A stretch of 64,000 bases of DNA from Archaeoglobales archaeon. Its GTDB lineage: Archaea; Halobacteriota; Archaeoglobi; Archaeoglobales; Archaeoglobaceae. The notes under the pieces are model-generated. The model was not told where the DNA came from. It worked only from the letters and a program-made list of their open reading frames with translations, and ran no database searches. Position 1 is the first letter of the stretch; each line of letters opens with the position of its first letter. Location of the stretch: positions 1-64,000 of the forward strand of contig JAAOZI010000012.1 in NCBI GenBank assembly GCA_011605865.1, given 5' to 3'. Position numbers and translations under genes: made by a program. Below are positions 7,718 through 61,819 of this stretch, piece after piece.

Positions 7718-8680
7718 ATGATTGAAGAAGAAATCCTCGACATACTTGCGGAATTCGGACCTCTAAGTTCCCAAGAAATAGAGAAAGAATTGCAAAACAG
7801 AGGATTCAGTATAACATCAAGAACAGTAAGATACCACCTCAAAAAGCTTGAACAGAGAGGCCTTGTTAATAAAGGAGACCATGGAAAATCACAAATTACA
7901 CTGGAAGGAATAGATTTCCTAAAAGGACTCAAAGCCTTCGAAAGATTGGGGGAGTTTAGCGAAAGGATCGAAATAAACGTTTATTCCAGCGATTTCGACA
8001 TTTACAGAATGAAAGGAAAGGTGCCAACGAATCTGGCAATAATAAAGAAAGAAGAATTTGAAAAGTGTGTAGAAGTTTTAGCAGAAATGGAGGATTTTCC
8101 CTTCATTATCTATAACGGGGTCTTTTTTGCAGATGAGGGGGAGGAGATAGATGGCAAAAAAATCCCGAACGGTCACTTTGGCATCGCAACGATCTCAAAC
8201 ACGTTCTACGACGTCCTTTTAAAATCGGCAGGGATTAACACTTATCCCGAATACGCAGCATTGCTTAGAGTTGAGAACATGGTTCCGAGCAGGATTATGG
8301 AACTGATAAGCTACGTTGGAACAACTATGAGCCCAGGGTGGCTACTTCTTCGTTCAGGTCTGACTTCAGTTAGCTCTGTGTTGAAAAATGGTAGCGGAGT
8401 AATAATCTCGGCCGTTAGAAGTTTTAGCAGATATGCCATAGATATAGCGCTTAGAACAGTTGAAACCGCCAGCTCAAGGGGCTTTAGAGGAGTTCTTGCT
8501 GTTCTTCATCCATCAGACAGACGATTCAGTCTTCCTTTTGGAAAAAGAGCAAGAATCATCACAAGCGCAGGACTGAACCATCTAGCACCCATACATGAAA
8601 TGGGAATTGATATGGAAATAAGAGTAAACGAAGTATTACTCGAGTTCTCAAAATTTAAACCAATTAGCACTATTAAATAA
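7718..8680 (+). CDS. NrpR-like transcriptional regulator (winged helix + one DUF128/NRD domain)
   Basis: N-terminal wHTH (LSSQEIEKELQNRGFSITSRTVRYHLKKLEQRGLV) followed by about 230 aa DUF128-like domain (LLLRSGLTSVSSVLKNGSGVIISAVRSFSRYAID). Confidence 0.85.
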   Translation: MIEEEILDILAEFGPLSSQEIEKELQNRGFSITSRTVRYHLKKLEQRGLVNKGDHGKSQITLEGIDFLKGLKAFERLGEFSERIEINVYSSDFDIYRMKGKVPTNLAIIKKEEFEKCVEVLAEMEDFPFIIYNGVFFADEGEEIDGKKIPNGHFGIATISNTFYDVLLKSAGINTYPEYAALLRVENMVPSRIMELISYVGTTMSPGWLLLRSGLTSVSSVLKNGSGVIISAVRSFSRYAIDIALRTVETASSRGFRGVLAVLHPSDRRFSLPFGKRARIITSAGLNHLAPIHEMGIDMEIRVNEVLLEFSKFKPISTIK

Positions 8681-8691
8681 CATATTATTTT

Positions 8692-8705
8692 GGAGAAACA
8701 TTTCC
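8692..8705. promoter_or_regulatory. Candidate NrpR-type operator GGAG-AAACAT-TTCC (inside TTGGAGAAACATTTCCAA)
   Basis: One mismatch to the published NrpR consensus GGAA-N6-TTCC; lies between the NrpR-like gene and the TAXI gene. Confidence 0.5.
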
Positions 8706-8708
8706 AAA

Positions 8709-8720
8709 AAACTTAAATAT
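8709..8720 (+). promoter_or_regulatory. Archaeal BRE/TATA-like element (aaacttaaatat) upstream of TAXI gene
   Basis: A-rich/TTAAATAT element about 20 nt upstream of the start at 8735-8741. Confidence 0.5.
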
Positions 8721-8734
8721 ATGAAAAAACACTA

Positions 8735-9769
8735 TTGACTATGGTGAAAAAAGGGATTGTTGCTATTCTGCTAGTCGTAGCTTTAGTAGCAGTTTTTGCC
8801 GGTTGCCAACAGCCCCAGCCAGCTACTACGCCGACGCCAACCCCTACGCCAACGCCGAAAATAACTTCTCTAACAATAGCATCCGGAACCGTTGGGGGAG
8901 TATATATTTATTATTGCTCAGGGCTCGCCTCCATTTATTCAAAGTATTTGAACATTTCAGCAAATGCGGTTCAAACGAAGGCAAGTGTTGACAACCTGCT
9001 ATACGTTTACAAATCACCAAATGACACAATTGGGATTTCGCTGATCAAGTCCGTTCACGATGCTTGGCACGGGAATCTCGACGCCTTCGAGAAGAAACCT
9101 CAAAACTGGATTAGAGTACTTTGGGTCACCTATGTTACCCCAATCCATATCGTAACAACCTCTGATAGCGGAATAAAAACTGTCTACGATCTAAAAGGAA
9201 AAAGAGTTTCAACAGACGCTCCGGGAAGTGGTACTGAAATAGATGCGCTCGCAATTCTAAGCGCGGCAGGGATAGATCCTTCAAAAGATTTCGCAGTCTG
9301 GCAAAAACTAGGTGCAAAAGAATCCGCAGATGCTTTGCTTGATGGAAAGCTTGATGCTTATTTCTGGAGCGGAACGATCCCAACAGCTTCTGTTTCAGAG
9401 CTCGCAACAAACTTGAAACAGAGAGGAAAACAGATAGCCTTTGTCGCTATTCCAGATGACGTCGCAAAGAAGTTGAACGAAATGTATCCGGGCCTTTATG
9501 TCTCTGATGTTATGAAGAAGGAATACTACGACTCACCAGCTGATGTACAAACAGTTTCGACGCTCAATGTCATATTCTGCCATAAGGATCTCCCGGAGGA
9601 CTTCGTATACATGCTCGTTAAAACCACCTTCGAACATTTGGATGATTTGTACGCTGTGCATCCGGCTGCCAAGCAGACAACAATTCAAAACGCCGTGATT
9701 TACAGGGGAGATGTACCATATCATCCGGGCGCATTGAAATACTATAAGGAAAAGGGAGTGCTAAAGTAA
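8735..9769 (+). CDS. TAXI-family TRAP transporter solute-binding lipoprotein
   Basis: Signal with lipobox (VALVAVFAGC), TPTPTPTP linker, SLTIASGTVGGVYIYYCSGLASIYSKYL, DLKGKRVSTDAPGSGTEIDALAIL. Confidence 0.92.
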   Translation: MTMVKKGIVAILLVVALVAVFAGCQQPQPATTPTPTPTPTPKITSLTIASGTVGGVYIYYCSGLASIYSKYLNISANAVQTKASVDNLLYVYKSPNDTIGISLIKSVHDAWHGNLDAFEKKPQNWIRVLWVTYVTPIHIVTTSDSGIKTVYDLKGKRVSTDAPGSGTEIDALAILSAAGIDPSKDFAVWQKLGAKESADALLDGKLDAYFWSGTIPTASVSELATNLKQRGKQIAFVAIPDDVAKKLNEMYPGLYVSDVMKKEYYDSPADVQTVSTLNVIFCHKDLPEDFVYMLVKTTFEHLDDLYAVHPAAKQTTIQNAVIYRGDVPYHPGALKYYKEKGVLK

Positions 9770-10153
9770 ATGAAATTGATTTTTTTAATTATTTTTATAT
9801 TATTTGTTCTTTTATCAGAACTGGGAAAGATCATATGCCTAGAAACAAGAGATAATGTTACAAAAATTCCAACAAGCAAACTAGAACTCGAATTCAGACA
9901 TTCTATGTATGGAGGGTGCATAACTTTGTTCGTACAAGTTTCTAATAACAAACTGTTCATAGAAAAGATCTCAAGCGACGATGAAGCCTCGATTTCATAC
10001 TATACTGATCAATACTTCTTTAGAGACGGAAGGTTCTTCGCAGAGATCAAAGAGGAGAGGAGTGAAATTTTGGTAAATGATGGCTGGAAACTGAAGTTTG
10101 GAAACGAAGAGATTGTTACAAAATACTTGACAAAAATATTCATTTGCGGGTGA
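9770..10153 (+). CDS. DUF1850-like TRAP-associated protein
   Basis: 127 aa, N-terminal hydrophobic anchor, LEFRHSMYGGCITLFVQV; position between TAXI receptor and permease is typical. Confidence 0.6.
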   Translation: MKLIFLIIFILFVLLSELGKIICLETRDNVTKIPTSKLELEFRHSMYGGCITLFVQVSNNKLFIEKISSDDEASISYYTDQYFFRDGRFFAEIKEERSEILVNDGWKLKFGNEEIVTKYLTKIFICG

Positions 10154-10157
10154 TCTA

Positions 10158-12199
10158 ATGAGTTTAGCAAGATATTTTGGAGGATTACTGGCATTTTACA
10201 GTATTTTTATTCTCTTTTACCCCGATCTCATTCCATACCTAACTTGGCTTCCAACTAGCATTAGATACTGTTTCGACCAAATTCATCTTATTAGAGGCAT
10301 TCACTTAATGCTCTGCATATCTGCTCTGGCCTTTCTTGCTTACGGCAAAAAAACGAGTTTTTTAGGAAACGCCATATTATCGGTGATGTCTTTACCCTGT
10401 GCAATAATCCTCTCACTTGTAATAAAAAATCCTGCAACCTCTTTTATGATCTTTCTTCTCTGGTTCGCAACATTTCCACTCGATGCGATCTTTCAGCTAT
10501 AAAAAAGCAGGTAAACTGGAAGTTCATAATTCTCCTGCTTTATCTTCCTGCTACTATTTACTTAATAATCGATTATGAAAAAATAATATACAGAATCGTT
10601 TTTCCAACAGATCTAGATGTTCTAGTAGGATGGACAATGATTCTGCTTCTTCTATATGCCACAAACATCAAAATAGGCTGGCCTCTACCGGCAATTGTTC
10701 TAGTCTTCCTCAATTATACCCTCTTCGGTAGCAATATTCCTCCCCCTATAGGCCACAATTTTAGAGACATTCCCCTAGCAATCGGAAAAAGCTGGATGGA
10801 AACGGAAGCAGGAATATTCGGTTTGCCACTTGGGGTTTCTGCAGGGTATATAGTTTACTTTACAATTCTCGGCGGCGTTTTGCAAGCAATAGGTATAACC
10901 AAATTTATATCCGAATTTGCCTCGGCTTTTCTAGGTAGATCTCCTCAAGATGTTGGGAGAGCTACAACTGTCTATTCCGCTGTTATGGGAATGGTTTCCG
11001 GCTCAGGTGTTGCTGTCACAACTACTGTTGCAACAACGATGCTCCCCTCGTTCAGAAAGGCTGGTTATGATGACAAATTTTCCTCAGCCTTCATAGCTGG
11101 TACGGGAACGGCGGCGCTAATAACTCCGCCAGTTCTAGGAGCTGCAGCCTTCATAATGATGGAAGTGATAGGGGTAGACTACAAGACTTTAATAGTGATG
11201 ACAATTCTACCGGCTCTCCTTTATTATCTATCCCTCCAGATTTATCTCGAGCTATTCACAAAAAAGCATAGGTTAACCAAACTAAGTGATGTTGAAAAAA
11301 GAAGGAAAAAGGATGTTATAAGGGAACTTTACATGCTACTACCGATTGCAATTCTGATCTATATGATTTTCCAAGGCTACACGATCGCAATGTCTGCTGT
11401 CACAGCGATATTTGTCTCTTGTCTAATCGGTTTAGTGAGGAGAGTAAAAATTCGAGATCTCCTGAAAGGTTTTAGCGATGGAGCTCTAGATGTGATACCA
11501 GTTGCCCTAGCGTGTGCGTGCGCTGGAATAATCCTGCATTCACTCCTAGTTACGGGACTTGGGATGAAAATAGAAGAGATAGTGCGCTTCATAAGTGCTG
11601 GAAATTACTACATATCCCTACTTCTTCTTGCAATCTTTACCCTTATTCTCGGTATGGGCGTACCACCAACTGCAAGTTACGTTATAGTATCAGCTTTGGT
11701 AATTCCGGCAACTGTTAAGCTTGCAATAGCACAAGGATTTCCTGAGGTTGTTGCCCACTACAGCGTTCACGTTTTTGCCTTCTATTACGCAATCCTTGCA
11801 GACGTAACCCCTCCCGTTGCACTCGCAGCTTATGCGGCAGCAGCTGTAGCAGGACAAAATCCCCTCAGAGTTGCAGTTGTCGCAGCAAAAATTGCCATAA
11901 TAAAGTACCTAATAGCCTTTTCATTTGTATTAGCTCCTGCTGGCTCTGCTTTGCTTATCGTTCTACATCTTAACAATCCGGCAGAAATAGTGATAAGAGC
12001 AGTCCTAATATCTGTTTCTGTAATCGCAATTAACAGTGCAACAGTAGGGTACTTCAGGAGAAATCTGAACATTTTAAAGAGAACGGTTCTCTTTGTTGCG
12101 GGAATCATGCTAATAATCCCACTAACGCTCACTAATGTTCTAGGATTAATTCTAGTGGCTTTGATGCTTGTTCCAGAGTTTCGTAGAAGTCCTAGTTAA
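10158..12199 (+). CDS. TRAP transporter 4TM/12TM fused permease, reading frame broken at a 6-A run (about 10501-10506)
   Basis: ORF 10158-10502 (4TM part) and the frame that is open through 10502-10636 into ORF 10637-12199 (12TM DctM-like: GMVSGSGVAVTTTVATTMLPSFRKAGYD, GTGTAALITPPVLGAAAFIM, LGMGVPPTASYVI). Confidence 0.85.
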
Positions 12200-12267
12200 T
12201 CTATTTTTTGGTCATTCATTGCCGAAAAACTTATTAAATAAAATTCAAAAGAATCTTCGGTGAGAAG

Positions 12268-13452
12268 ATGTTTAGAGGTGTTGACTTCTACGGGATAGAT
12301 GAACTCCTCACAGAGGAGGAGAGGCTTATAAGAAATTCTGTAAGAGAATTCCTAGAAAAAGAGATAGCCCCATTGGTTGCCGAAGCATGGCATAAAGAGG
12401 AGCCGCTAAATTTTAGAGAAATTGGAAAAAAATTCGGCGAACTAGGAATGCTAGGGCCTTTTATTCCTGAAGAATACGGTTGCCCGGGAATGAACTACAC
12501 ATCCTTTGGTCTCATCTGCCAAGAAGTGGAGAGAATCGATAGTGCCCTGAGAAGCTTCGTGGCAGTCACATCTGGTCTTGTGATGTATCCAATATGGAAA
12601 TTCGGGAGTGAGGAACAGAAAAAGAAGTATCTTCCAAAACTCGCAAAAGGAGAAATAATAGGCTGTTTTGGGATGACTGAACCCAACGTTGGTAGCGATC
12701 CGGCCAGCATGGAAACAAACGCTAGAAAGGAAGGAGACGAGTGGATTCTTAACGGAACCAAGACTTGGATCAGTGAAGCGGAAATTGCAGATATAGCAAT
12801 CGTTTGGGCAAGAGATCTCGGAGATGGAAGAATAAAGGGCTTCATTGTCGAAAAAGGAATGAAAGGATTCAAACAGTCAGCTATTAAGAAAAAAGGCTCG
12901 ATGAGGGCTGGTGACGTTGGAGAGCTTTATCTGAGTGACTGCAGGGTTCCAGAAGAGAACAGGCTGCCAAATGCTATCGGCCTGAGACCCGCTCTCAGTT
13001 GTCTCGATCAGGCGAGATTTGGTATTTCTTGGGGCGCAATAGGCGCGGCAATGGATTGCTACGAGACAGCATTGAACTATGCAAAAAACAGAAAACAATT
13101 CGGGGCCCCCATCGCATCCTATCAGCTAATCCAAGCTAAGCTTGTGGATATGCTAACAGAGATAACAAAAGGACAACTCGTTGCTTGGAGGCTCGGAAAA
13201 CTGATGGATGAAGGAAAAGCAACTCCAGAACAGATATCATTTGCAAAGAGAAACAATGTAAGAGTTGCGAGATTCTGTGCACGGACAGCAAGAGAAATAC
13301 TCGGAGCTAATGGAATAAGTCTCGATTATTCGCCGATAAGACATATGGCAAATATAGAGAGCGTTTACACGTATGAAGGGACAGATGACATTCACACCCT
13401 AATTCTCGGTAGATACATAACTGGAATTCAGGCATTCAGGAGGGAGTTGTGA
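12268..13452 (+). CDS. Glutaryl-CoA dehydrogenase-like acyl-CoA dehydrogenase
   Basis: GCFGMTEPNVGSDPASMETNARKEGDEWILNGTKTWISEAEIADIAIVWAR; NIESVYTYEGTDDIHTLILGRYITGIQAF closely resembles the human GCDH C-terminus as remembered. Confidence 0.88.
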   Translation: MFRGVDFYGIDELLTEEERLIRNSVREFLEKEIAPLVAEAWHKEEPLNFREIGKKFGELGMLGPFIPEEYGCPGMNYTSFGLICQEVERIDSALRSFVAVTSGLVMYPIWKFGSEEQKKKYLPKLAKGEIIGCFGMTEPNVGSDPASMETNARKEGDEWILNGTKTWISEAEIADIAIVWARDLGDGRIKGFIVEKGMKGFKQSAIKKKGSMRAGDVGELYLSDCRVPEENRLPNAIGLRPALSCLDQARFGISWGAIGAAMDCYETALNYAKNRKQFGAPIASYQLIQAKLVDMLTEITKGQLVAWRLGKLMDEGKATPEQISFAKRNNVRVARFCARTAREILGANGISLDYSPIRHMANIESVYTYEGTDDIHTLILGRYITGIQAFRREL

Positions 13453-13453
13453 T

Positions 13454-14638
13454 TTGAAACCATTTGAGGACCTACTAATTCTAGAATTAGCACAGGCTGT
13501 AGCTGGGCCTTATATTGGAACCCTCCTTGCAGACCTTGGAGCCGAGGTTATACACATAGAAAGACCAAAGATCGGCGATCTTGCTAGGCATTGGATACCT
13601 ATAAGAGGGGATCTAAGCTTTTATTTCGCAGTCGTGAACAGAAACAAAAAATCCATGACACTAGATTTAAAGAGTAGTGAAGGAAGGGAAATTTTTCTAA
13701 AGTTAGCAGAGAAAGCAGATGTTATAATAGAAAACTTCGTACCTGGTGTCGTTGAGTCTCTCGGCGTTGGCTACGAAGTTGTGAAAAAAATAAATCCAAA
13801 AGTCATCTACTGTCACGTTTCAGGATTCGGTCAGGATGGTCCATATCGCGATCGACCTGCCTTTGATCAGCTGATACAGGGAGAGGCAGGGATAATAAGC
13901 TACACTGGTACAAAAGAGACCCCCTGCAAGATAAATGTACCAATTACAGATATCCTAGCAGCAATGTATGGAGTTTACGCCATTCTCGCCGCTCTTTTGC
14001 GCAGAGAGAGAACGGGAGAAGGGGCTGAAATAGATATTTCGCTCTTTGATTGCGCAGTTACCATGATGACCAATCTGATGAATATGGTCCTAGTAGAGGG
14101 GATGAAGGACGAGGATTTGAGAATGGAGACAAAATATTTCCTTGCAACACCCTACGAACCGTATCCAGCCGGCGACGGAAAGCTCTTAAATATAGTTGTG
14201 GCCACAGAATGGCACTGGGAAGCTTTTTGCAAATCCGTGGGTTTGGAAAACCTGCTAAAAGATGAGAGATTTAAAACAAACCAGCAGAGACTTAAGCATA
14301 GAGAAGAACTTGAGAAGATCATAATTGAAAAACTTAAGGAAAAATCAAGAGACGAATGGATAGAAATCCTTTTAAAGGCTGGAGTTCCGTGCGGAGCAGT
14401 TAACGAGATAAAAGAAGTGATAAACCACCCACAGACTATAGCCAGAAATGTAATTGCCGAAATCGATTATCCCGGACTGGGTAAGATAAAAACCTTTAAC
14501 AATCCTGTAAAGATATCTGGAATCCGATTTTCGGTCCAAAGGCCGCCTAAACTAGGCGAGCATACAGAAGAAATTCTTAAAAAGCTGGGATACTCGACTG
14601 AGGAAATAAAAAAGCTCAAAGAGAAGAATATAGTATGA
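13454..14638 (+). CDS. Class III (CaiB/BaiF, SUGCT-like) CoA-transferase
   Basis: LELAQAVAGPYIGTLLADLGAEVIHIERP...NRNKKSMTLDLKSSEGREIFLKLAEKADVIIENFVPGV...GFGQDGPYRDRPAFD. Confidence 0.93.
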   Translation: MKPFEDLLILELAQAVAGPYIGTLLADLGAEVIHIERPKIGDLARHWIPIRGDLSFYFAVVNRNKKSMTLDLKSSEGREIFLKLAEKADVIIENFVPGVVESLGVGYEVVKKINPKVIYCHVSGFGQDGPYRDRPAFDQLIQGEAGIISYTGTKETPCKINVPITDILAAMYGVYAILAALLRRERTGEGAEIDISLFDCAVTMMTNLMNMVLVEGMKDEDLRMETKYFLATPYEPYPAGDGKLLNIVVATEWHWEAFCKSVGLENLLKDERFKTNQQRLKHREELEKIIIEKLKEKSRDEWIEILLKAGVPCGAVNEIKEVINHPQTIARNVIAEIDYPGLGKIKTFNNPVKISGIRFSVQRPPKLGEHTEEILKKLGYSTEEIKKLKEKNIV

Positions 14639-14675: not shown

Positions 14676-15389
14676 GTGTCAATGGAAAAGCTCCTATTTA
14701 AGAAAGGTATATCTACTGGAATTTCTCTTCTTGACAAGAGATTAGATGGCGGGCTACCTGCTGGTAGCTTTGTATGCCTTTATGCCGATCCCATTGCAAT
14801 GCCGGAAACTTTCCTTTATCATTTGGCAAGTTCATCTAAAAGCTACTACATAACAACAAACCGCCCGGCTAAATATGTCATAAGAGATATGGAAATTTTG
14901 CGATTTAGAACGAAGGATATTACATTCATCGACGTATTTTCACAGTATTTCCTAAATGAATATGGGCAGTTTGTTGTCGAAGACAGATACAGAGACAAAG
15001 AAATCTTCGATTTTCTAGCCGATAGATTCCAAAGCATGAATAATAATGAAGACTACGTCGTCGTTCTCGACAGCCTTTCATTCTTCCTAAACCTACAAGT
15101 GGAGTGGGGCCTCAAAGAATGGTTGTTGAATAGGCTTTATTCCATCGCAAAGGAAAAAAATACTGTAGTATGTGCTTATATGATCAAAAAATTCCATCCA
15201 GAGAACATCGTTTACAGAGTCCTCGATCTATCAGACGTGGTTATGAACGTTGAAGCAGAAAGAATTGGAGAAAAAATTGTAATGAAGTTTGCTCTCCCAA
15301 AGATTAGGGGTAAAAAGCCGATAACCGAGTTCTACAGGTTCACAATCGATGAAGGAATACAGATAGATACTTCAAGAGATATTGCCTAA
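14676..15389 (+). CDS. RAD55/KaiC-like RecA-superfamily protein with degenerate Walker A
   Basis: GISLLDKRLDGGLPAGSFVCLYADPIAMPETFLYHLA aligns with the KaiC/RAD55 P-loop region but lacks GKT/S; DYVVVLDSLSFFL is Walker-B like. Confidence 0.7.
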   Translation: MSMEKLLFKKGISTGISLLDKRLDGGLPAGSFVCLYADPIAMPETFLYHLASSSKSYYITTNRPAKYVIRDMEILRFRTKDITFIDVFSQYFLNEYGQFVVEDRYRDKEIFDFLADRFQSMNNNEDYVVVLDSLSFFLNLQVEWGLKEWLLNRLYSIAKEKNTVVCAYMIKKFHPENIVYRVLDLSDVVMNVEAERIGEKIVMKFALPKIRGKKPITEFYRFTIDEGIQIDTSRDIA

Positions 15390-59189: not shown

Positions 59190-59757
59190 CCTCCCCGTTC
59201 TTTTTTTGAGTTAGTTTTTTAACTGCCCCAATTCTAACAAGCTCAACAGCATTTGCGATTTCCAAGAGATCTTCAAAGCTCTTACTCCTTATCCTAAACT
59301 CCCTCCCATAATCTACGGTTATTGCCAAAAAGTAAGATCTAGTAAGCTTCCACCAGTAGATGAGCAGAAACGAGATTCCAAGCATCGCAACTGGTAAAAC
59401 AAAAAATATCATGGCTGAGAGAAAAGAATCAATCCTCGGAACGAATGAGAGTAGGAGAGATGATGCGGCAAGCAATATCATTCCGGATAATAGGTAGCCA
59501 ACTTTGTTATCTTTCTGTATTTTTAAGTTTTTTATCGCCGATACGTGGGTTATTTTCACTTCCTCCGAACTCTCAAATAAAATTCGCTCTTCAGTTATCC
59601 TCACCCTGCCTTTTTTTGCTTTCAAATCATTTTCGACAGTATAAACATTTGTCTCGAAGAGAACCTTCTCCGGTACAACAATCTCCATACTACGAAAAAA
59701 TTTGGCAAGATAAAATTTTTTTCTTGTAAAAATGGAAGTCAAATTCTGAAATAGCAA
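59167..59757 (-). CDS. Membrane protein of unknown function, PH-like N-terminus
   Basis: Likely start MEIVVPEKVLFETNVYTVENDLKAKKGRVRITEERILFES, two central TM segments. Confidence 0.65.
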   Translation of the reverse strand: MLFQNLTSIFTRKKFYLAKFFRSMEIVVPEKVLFETNVYTVENDLKAKKGRVRITEERILFESSEEVKITHVSAIKNLKIQKDNKVGYLLSGMILLAASSLLLSFVPRIDSFLSAMIFFVLPVAMLGISFLLIYWWKLTRSYFLAITVDYGREFRIRSKSFEDLLEIANAVELVRIGAVKKLTQKKNGEAKTLSYL

Positions 59758-59785: not shown

Positions 59786-61819
59786 TTGATGAAAGCATTT
59801 TTTTATCCTAAAAAAGTCGCGGTCGTTGGAGCTTCCGCAAAAAAAGGTTCAGTGGGCAATGAAATACTCAAAAATTTAAAAGCCTTCAAAGGAAGTCTAT
59901 ACGCCGTTAATCCAAAATATTCCGAGATAGAGGGAGTTGAATGTTATCCCTCAGTTTCTTCTCTTCCAGAGACAGTTGATCTGGCTATAATCGCCATACC
60001 AGCCCGAACAGTAGCAGACGTTGTTGACGAGTGTGGAAGAAGGGGAATAAAAAACATTATTGTTATCTCAGCAGGCTTCAAAGAAACTGGAGTTGAAGGT
60101 GCAAGGTTAGAAGAGAAATTGATAGAAGTTGCAAAAAAATATAATATAAAACTCCTTGGACCGAATTGCCTTGGAGTGATGAACCCTGAAATAAATCTGA
60201 ATGCAACATTCAGTCCATTCATGCCGAGAAAAGGGAGAATTGCATTCCTAAGCCAATCAGGCGCCTTTATCCTTGCAGTAACCCTTTGGGCTCAAAAAAC
60301 CAAGTTTGGATTCAGCAAAATAGTCAGCATGGGCAATAAAGCTATACTAGATGAGGCAGACTTCCTAGAATATTTTGCTGAAGATGATAGAACAGATGTG
60401 ATCATGCTTTACATTGAGGGCGTTAAAAACGGCAAGAGGTTTATGGAGGTTTCGAAAAAAGTAGGAAAGGATAAACCGATAGTTGTACTAAAGGCTGGAA
60501 AAACTGAAAGTGGGGCTAGAGCTGCTTCAAGTCACACCGGTAGTCTTGCCGGGAGTTACGAGGTATATAAGACGGCATTTGAGCAATGTGGAATTGTAAC
60601 TGCCGAAAACGCCGAAGAGCTCTTTGATTTCTCGTTCGCCTTATCAAAATACAGGAAGATCGGAAAGGTTGCAATAATTACAAACTCTGGAGGACCTGGA
60701 GTTATGGCCTCGGACGCTGTCGAAATATATGGTCTTGAGATGTCAAATTTTAGTATCGAAACCATAAAAGCTCTAAAAGAGCTTCTCCCACCTTCTGCAA
60801 ACTTCTATAACCCTGTTGATGTTCTCGGCGATGCCGATACTGAAAGGTTCATAAAGACACTAAAAATTTTATCCGAAGACCCTAACGTGAACTCTATTAT
60901 CTCCATTCTGGCTCCGACTGCACAAATAGATTTTGAAAGAGTTGTAGATGAAGTTTTAAAGGTAAAAAAACCTATTTTCTGTTGCTTTATGGGATTGGAT
61001 AGCAAAAATGAGGACAGATTAATAGAGAACGGAATTCCAAACTTTTTTGATCCTTCAAGGGCTGTGAGGGTGATGTCTTCTGTCGAAAAATATTCAAAAA
61101 TGAGTTTCGAAAAGAGAGAGGTTCCGAAGTTTGATGTTTCCGAGAAATCAAGAGAAGTTTTCGAGAAAATAAAGAAAAAGTTTGTCGGTATTGAGGGTAT
61201 GGAGCTTCTGGACTGCTATGGAATAAAGATTGCTCCCTTCGGAATTGCTAGGAATGCTGAAGAGGCGCTAGAAATAGCTGATAGAATAGGTTATCCGGTC
61301 GTCTTGAAAATCGTTTCGCCAGATATAGTCCACAAAAGTGATATAGGCGCTATAAAACTCAACGTTACTAGAGAGAACATAAAAAGGAGCTTCTATGATA
61401 TAGTTTCAAGGGTTGAAAGTCTAATGCCTGAAGCAAGAATAGAAGGCGTTATGGTTCAGAAAATGATCTCAGGAGGGAGAGAGGTGATAATAGGATTAAA
61501 GAAAGACCCACAATTTGGTAAAGTTGTGATGTTCGGTCTTGGTGGTATTTATGTCGAGGTTTTCAAGGACGTGTCTTTCAAGATTGCACCGTTGAGCTGG
61601 GATGATGCCTATGATATGATAAAAAAGGTTAAATCCTACCAACTCCTAAAAGGTGTAAGAGGTGAAAAAGGCGTGGATATAGATGCAATTGCGGAAACTA
61701 TTTTGAGATTCACCCAACTGGGGATGGATTATCCAGTTCTTGAAATGGAAATAAATCCACTGAAAGTTTTTGAAAAAGGTTGTGTTGCTATCGACTTTAG
61801 AATGTTTTTGGAGGTGTGA
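59786..61819 (+). CDS. ADP-forming acyl/acetate-CoA ligase (fused alpha-beta)
   Basis: KKVAVVGASAKKGSVGNEIL; ARAASSHTGSLAGS; ATP-grasp PVVLKIVSPDIVHKSDIGAIKLNV. Confidence 0.95.
   Translation: MMKAFFYPKKVAVVGASAKKGSVGNEILKNLKAFKGSLYAVNPKYSEIEGVECYPSVSSLPETVDLAIIAIPARTVADVVDECGRRGIKNIIVISAGFKETGVEGARLEEKLIEVAKKYNIKLLGPNCLGVMNPEINLNATFSPFMPRKGRIAFLSQSGAFILAVTLWAQKTKFGFSKIVSMGNKAILDEADFLEYFAEDDRTDVIMLYIEGVKNGKRFMEVSKKVGKDKPIVVLKAGKTESGARAASSHTGSLAGSYEVYKTAFEQCGIVTAENAEELFDFSFALSKYRKIGKVAIITNSGGPGVMASDAVEIYGLEMSNFSIETIKALKELLPPSANFYNPVDVLGDADTERFIKTLKILSEDPNVNSIISILAPTAQIDFERVVDEVLKVKKPIFCCFMGLDSKNEDRLIENGIPNFFDPSRAVRVMSSVEKYSKMSFEKREVPKFDVSEKSREVFEKIKKKFVGIEGMELLDCYGIKIAPFGIARNAEEALEIADRIGYPVVLKIVSPDIVHKSDIGAIKLNVTRENIKRSFYDIVSRVESLMPEARIEGVMVQKMISGGREVIIGLKKDPQFGKVVMFGLGGIYVEVFKDVSFKIAPLSWDDAYDMIKKVKSYQLLKGVRGEKGVDIDAIAETILRFTQLGMDYPVLEMEINPLKVFEKGCVAIDFRMFLEV

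Follow-up and report, generated by a model that had tools for sequence, protein, structure and literature searches.

The palindrome between an NrpR-like gene and a TAXI promoter in an Archaeoglobales archaeon: likely operator of a local switch for glutarate uptake and breakdown

What is the role of the palindrome that separates the gene of an NrpR-like protein from the promoter of a TAXI gene in this Archaeoglobales archaeon, and which genes, if any, does it serve? The palindrome, TTGGAGAAACATTTCCAA, the putative operator O1, occupies positions 8690-8707 (+ strand) of the window, as we call the whole 64,000-nucleotide stretch of DNA that was analysed. There the letters read ttggagaaacatttccaa and contain GGAG-N6-TTCC at 8692-8705, beginning 11 nt downstream of the stop codon that ends the NrpR-like ORF (7718-8680). 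Directly on the 3′ side follows aaacttaaatat (8709-8720), within the BRE/TATA-like element aaacttaaatatat of the TAXI promoter (8709-8722, + strand), which was recognised from the sequence and from the string CCAAAAA.CTTAAATAT common to the window and to G008, the one congener in which the regulator was found. With the TAXI start codon (ATG) at 8741, the transcript would be nearly leaderless. The outer pairs of O1 (TTGGA/TCCAA) are perfect and the fourth pair of its GGAA/TTCC half-sites is broken (G/T), which leaves it one position off GGAA-N6-TTCC. A preliminary description of this DNA had given the same coordinates, spacing, TATA-like neighbour and single mismatch, and had read the site as an NrpR-type operator through which the neighbouring gene product directly represses the downstream operon.

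The letters of O1 by themselves are weak evidence. The window has 15 copies of GGA-N8-TCC where shuffles give 15.3, and GGAA-N6-TTCC occurs 51 times in the genome, nearly all of the checked copies being inside ORFs; counting these patterns was rejected as proof of O1, since the matches are at chance level and mostly coding. Such frequencies are what would be expected of a palindrome arising by chance in A+T-rich intergenic DNA. Of the longer TTGGAR-N6-YTCCAA the 1.27 Mb genome has four copies, compared with one of the reversed control, three of the four (i.e., all except O1) lying inside ORFs, and a genome search returned the exact 14-mer of O1 as a single copy. It is comparison across genomes that provides strong evidence: the site is kept at the same position in at least 15 genomes and correlates with the regulator, so that, barring artefactual homologous loci, conservation already refutes an accidental origin, which retains hardly any probability.

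In G008 the TAXI promoter has TTGGCAATGCACTTCCAA at the place equivalent to O1, and elsewhere the site belongs to the gene of a glutaryl-CoA dehydrogenase homologue (GCDH). The NRD proteins (i.e., the NrpR-like proteins) of site-bearing genomes have the recognition-helix motif RT[VI]RYH, and wherever a protein of this type is encoded, all GCDH promoters examined carry GG-N10-CC 58-74 nt before the start, abutting the BRE/TATA. The site was seen in the GCDH promoters of G000, G008, G016, G018, G021, G022, G023 and G010, also in those of G051, G052, G053, G054, G056, G061 and both G068 copies, and further in G013, G066 (L042) and a contig of the MAG JdFR-43 (L043); in the promoters compared it always precedes an A-rich block, followed by a TATA-like stretch. 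Outside the window and G008 (in G016, G018, G010, G022, G021, G023, G051-G054, G056, G061 and G068) no TAXI genes lie ahead and the site stands immediately 5′ of GCDH, G018 and G061 being divergent cases. The comparison of this intergenic region across genomes, which the preliminary description had proposed as a check, has thus borne the site out, in one TAXI promoter and in many GCDH promoters. The JdFR-43 contig, from a MAG named Thermoplasmatales, has an Archaeoglobales-type GCDH with the site, and the regulator 2 kb off, a combination due to transfer or misbinning.

Conversely, the site is absent from all GCDH-bearing genomes without an RT[VI]RYH-type protein. In five of them (G002, G004, G005, G007 and G009), whose GCDHs are 82-88% identical, no GG-N10-CC was found in 260 nt of GCDH promoter and no NRD protein was found in the genome; G057 (54% complete) has no GG-N10-CC near its GCDH promoter. 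In G055 (L139) what precedes GCDH looks like a short piece left over from the 3′ end of the regulator gene, the site is degraded and the NRD protein has the recognition helix RTVRKYV, an apparent case of natural joint loss of regulator and site, with misassembly possible in such a MAG. A Fisher test of site against regulator (17/0 against 0/7) gives 2.9e-6, a value that counts kin genomes as independent and therefore overstates significance: the site-less genomes are confined to few lineages (G055, G057 and five members of one genus), which leaves perhaps two or three independent gains or losses, not fifteen.

It could be argued that GG-N10-CC binds some other protein or represents an extended BRE, the NrpR-like gene being a mere neighbour, as the element abuts the BRE/TATA and CC(G/A)AAA falls within the conserved block. 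The five regulator-less genomes speak against this, their GCDH promoters lacking the element in spite of the similarity of the gene, and so does its match to the published operator of the regulator's own family (PMC2723118). Moreover, the site is still present in G051, G053 and G056, whose regulator and GCDH genes are widely separated or lie on separate contigs, just as control by the NrpR-like protein predicts, so a common neighbourhood is no explanation. We regard a different binding partner or a BRE extension as very unlikely. Direct control of the operon by the neighbouring NrpR-like protein, the central claim of the preliminary description, is strongly supported by a site whose position is kept and whose presence tracks the regulator across Archaeoglobales. 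The regulator encoded close to GCDH in G021 and G023 is a deeper paralogue, at 32% identity. In G023 (L123, 2685-10885) its gene shares a cluster with those of an AtuA-like protein and a divergent permease, with SucC/SucD-like genes and with GCDH; GG-N10-CC sites precede the AtuA-like gene and GCDH, and also occur between the genes of regulator and permease.

A second palindrome of the O1 kind, missing from the preliminary description, is found in the same operon. This putative operator, O2 (TTGGTCATTCATTGCCGA, 12208-12225, + strand), lies upstream of the GCDH gene, and the GCDH promoter of G008 has TTGGTTATTGATTGCCGA at the equivalent position, -58 from the start. When all positions on both strands of the 64-kb window are ranked with a weight matrix built from 16 sites in promoters of other genomes, the sites of the window itself being left out, O1 comes first and O2 second, with 0.075 and 0.175 matches expected per shuffle at their respective scores. 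Without G008 in the matrix O1 moves to rank 2 and O2, which is also the weaker of the two against the consensus, drops to rank 7, so that the case for O2 depends mainly on its position and on G008. The position then scoring above O1 belongs to an operator-like sequence (59732-59753, ATGGAAGTCAAATTCTGAAATA) before an acyl-CoA synthetase-like gene (59786-61819), a doubtful candidate whose right half is TTCT and not TTCC. The subfamily consensus of the 16 sites, GG(A/C)AA...TTTCC, agrees with GGAA-N6-TTCC, from which O1 departs at its position 4 (G, not A), binding being predicted.

The loose pattern GG-N8-TNCC-RAAA has 46 matches in the whole genome against 31 for the reversed control. Nearly all of the 46 are inside ORFs, and since those that are both well-scoring and promoter-placed are O1 and O2 only, the regulator looks local. 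The top loose match beyond the window (C4:2928, score 21.5) was rejected, as it lies inside a 181-aa ORF resembling a methyltransferase gene. The preliminary description had warned that many equal matches in non-promoter DNA would speak against the site; the short pattern does have such matches, at a chance-level count.

The regulator itself (7718-8680, + strand, 320 aa) consists of an N-terminal winged helix and one NRD domain (Pfam NRD1_2, E=1.1e-59; HTH_12, E=9.1e-18), scoring 202 bits with PF01995 (cut-off 25) and 64 bits with PF08461 (cut-off 21.4), and it matches the profile of PDB 3nek (MJ0159) at E=3e-27. It has, therefore, the NRD domain and N-terminal winged helix that define the NrpR domain family, and it is the sole PF01995 protein detected in this 84%-complete genome. 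In a midpoint-rooted tree of 41 NRD proteins it does not group with methanogen NrpRI, falling instead into a 28-row Archaeoglobales clade with support 100/99. The regulator, although NrpR-like, thus stands outside the methanogen nitrogen-repressor group, something that the preliminary description did not contain. Members of a separate NRD clade, among them those of G019 and G022, also precede a TAXI gene (L013, L024), with another recognition helix and a different shared promoter element, ATCGCAAATTTTAWATACCT. In G019 and G022 the TAXI-linked NRD proteins (31% identical) were rejected as parallel cases, having the helix KETVQYYL and no GG-N10-CC before TAXI.

The same observations bear on the classical interpretation, in which the palindrome would be an NrpR nitrogen operator and 2-oxoglutarate-sensing repression of the TAXI operon would serve nitrogen scavenging (uptake of glutamate or a similar compound). 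The domain family is the same and the operator is nearly identical to GGAA-N6-TTCC (PMC2723118), and one TAXI protein is described as glutamate-specific (PMC11574862). On the other hand, the clade of the regulator is separate from NrpRI, the target kept across genera is GCDH and no nitrogen gene, and GG-N10-CC is absent from the promoter of glnA, the nitrogen gene inspected in this incomplete genome. A role in nitrogen control is, in our view, quite unlikely.

The genes of the operon, all on the + strand, point to carbon catabolism. The first (8741-9769) encodes a TAXI-family TRAP solute-binding lipoprotein (TIGR02122, E=2.2e-80), whose nearest solved chains are TAXI proteins, including the GluR0-type core 1us4. 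It is followed by a small protein (9770-10153) without a Pfam match, kept in G008 at 39% identity, a small membrane protein of 114 aa (10158-10502), 69% identical in G008, and a TRAP fused permease (DctM; 10637-12199; TIGR02123, E=2.7e-122; PF06808). As the TRAP_fused model matches the permease only from model position 101 and a separate membrane ORF lies ahead, the permease may be split, the small ORF being possibly its detached N-terminal part. Downstream of O2 come GCDH (12268-13452), whose best PDB matches are glutaryl-CoA dehydrogenases (2eba on top, E=1.4e-139) and which has the E..R..S and YEGT motif residues, its decarboxylating activity being predicted from homology, and a CaiB/BaiF CoA-transferase (13454-14638). 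The best NCBIfam model of the latter is succinate--glutarate CoA-transferase (NF052585, E=7.4e-92, with 308 bits, under the cut-off of 750), and its top PDB match is 9br6, a succinate--hydroxymethylglutarate CoA-transferase. A KaiC-like ATPase (14676-15389; PF06745/PF23442) follows the operon and is kept in G008, its link to the system being uncertain. With the substrates of GCDH and the CoA-transferase assigned by homology, the operon reads as one whose products take up and oxidise glutarate or a closely similar C5 dicarboxylate, an aspect, like O2, that the preliminary description had missed.

Taken together, operator and regulon seem well supported, and we would give odds of about four in five (0.8) to the palindrome being the operator of a local NrpR-family switch, likely a repressor of glutarate uptake and breakdown that is relieved by glutarate or glutaryl-CoA. 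What the computation shows is the site, its position, its conservation, its co-occurrence with the regulator and the family of each protein; binding by this protein, repression and the ligand are inferred, as follows. The NrpR-like protein would bind GG-N10-CC palindromes with the consensus TTGG(A/C)AA-N4-TTTCC(G)AAA at two promoters of the operon, adjacent to the BRE or overlapping it, O1 governing TAXI-TRAP uptake and O2 governing GCDH and the CoA-transferase. The bound dimer would hinder TFB/TBP and so repress, as for NrpR (PMC2723118). The regulator would be released by a C5 dicarboxylate acting as signal, with glutarate or glutaryl-CoA as the most likely candidates, and uptake, CoA activation and oxidative decarboxylation would be switched on. 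Whilst the direct control claimed by the preliminary description is upheld by conservation and co-occurrence, its repressive sign is deduced from the sites abutting or overlapping the BRE. Some archaeal activators bind immediately upstream of the BRE, and O1 is upstream of the TATA and not on it, so the same regulator and operator could serve activation instead, the protein recruiting TFB from beside the BRE. Two points are against this: canonical NrpR is a repressor (PMC2723118), and the survival of GCDH in the five related genomes without regulator or site suits a repressor better. Activation appears rather unlikely, and repression remains the preferred reading.

Glutarate is 2-oxoglutarate minus the keto group. 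In Pseudomonas putida both GcdR, the regulator of gcdH, and CsiR have glutarate as their effector (PMC6667623), and NrpR responds to 2-oxoglutarate (PMC9765008); it is on these grounds that glutarate is proposed as the ligand. GCDH-linked NRD proteins have invariant or nearly invariant residues unlike those of methanogen NrpRI (SNT at 160-162, against CSI, as well as T203, S205, S235 and S237), changes that would suit an altered ligand without showing one. That the NrpR fold was recruited in Archaeoglobales from nitrogen control to glutarate or glutaryl-CoA sensing, with the pocket changed and the operator kept, is thus a tentative proposal, with chances just short of even.

If true, this would possibly be the first regulator in archaea to respond to glutarate, and the first of the NrpR family to act in carbon catabolism; in the open-access literature searched we found no paper on NrpR-like control of glutarate genes. 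A clade that keeps the family operator whilst controlling glutarate genes would mean that a 2-oxoglutarate sensor was re-used for a nearly identical metabolite. The system offers an operator and a regulon that are both defined, together with a natural series of presence and absence in which to follow the co-evolution of regulator and operator, and it predicts that uncultured Archaeoglobaceae have a pathway in which TAXI-TRAP takes up a C5 dicarboxylate.

Among known systems, the closest are NrpR of Methanococcus maripaludis and NrpRI of Methanosarcina, which share the winged helix and the NRD domain and whose palindromic operator near the promoter, GGAA-N6-TTCC, resembles the sites described here (PMC2723118). 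The regulator described here differs in its separate Archaeoglobales clade, its single NRD, its local target (uptake and GCDH/CoA-transferase, not nif/glnA) and its relaxed third operator base (A or C). The MJ0159 structure has the same NRD domain at low identity, and the differences from methanogen NrpRI in SNT 160-162, S235 and S237 apply to the protein of the window. GcdR (LysR family) and CsiR (GntR family) of P. putida likewise control glutarate catabolism, with gcdH-gcoT encoding the pair of activities predicted here (PMC6667623), but these are bacterial proteins of unrelated families, and GcdR is an activator.
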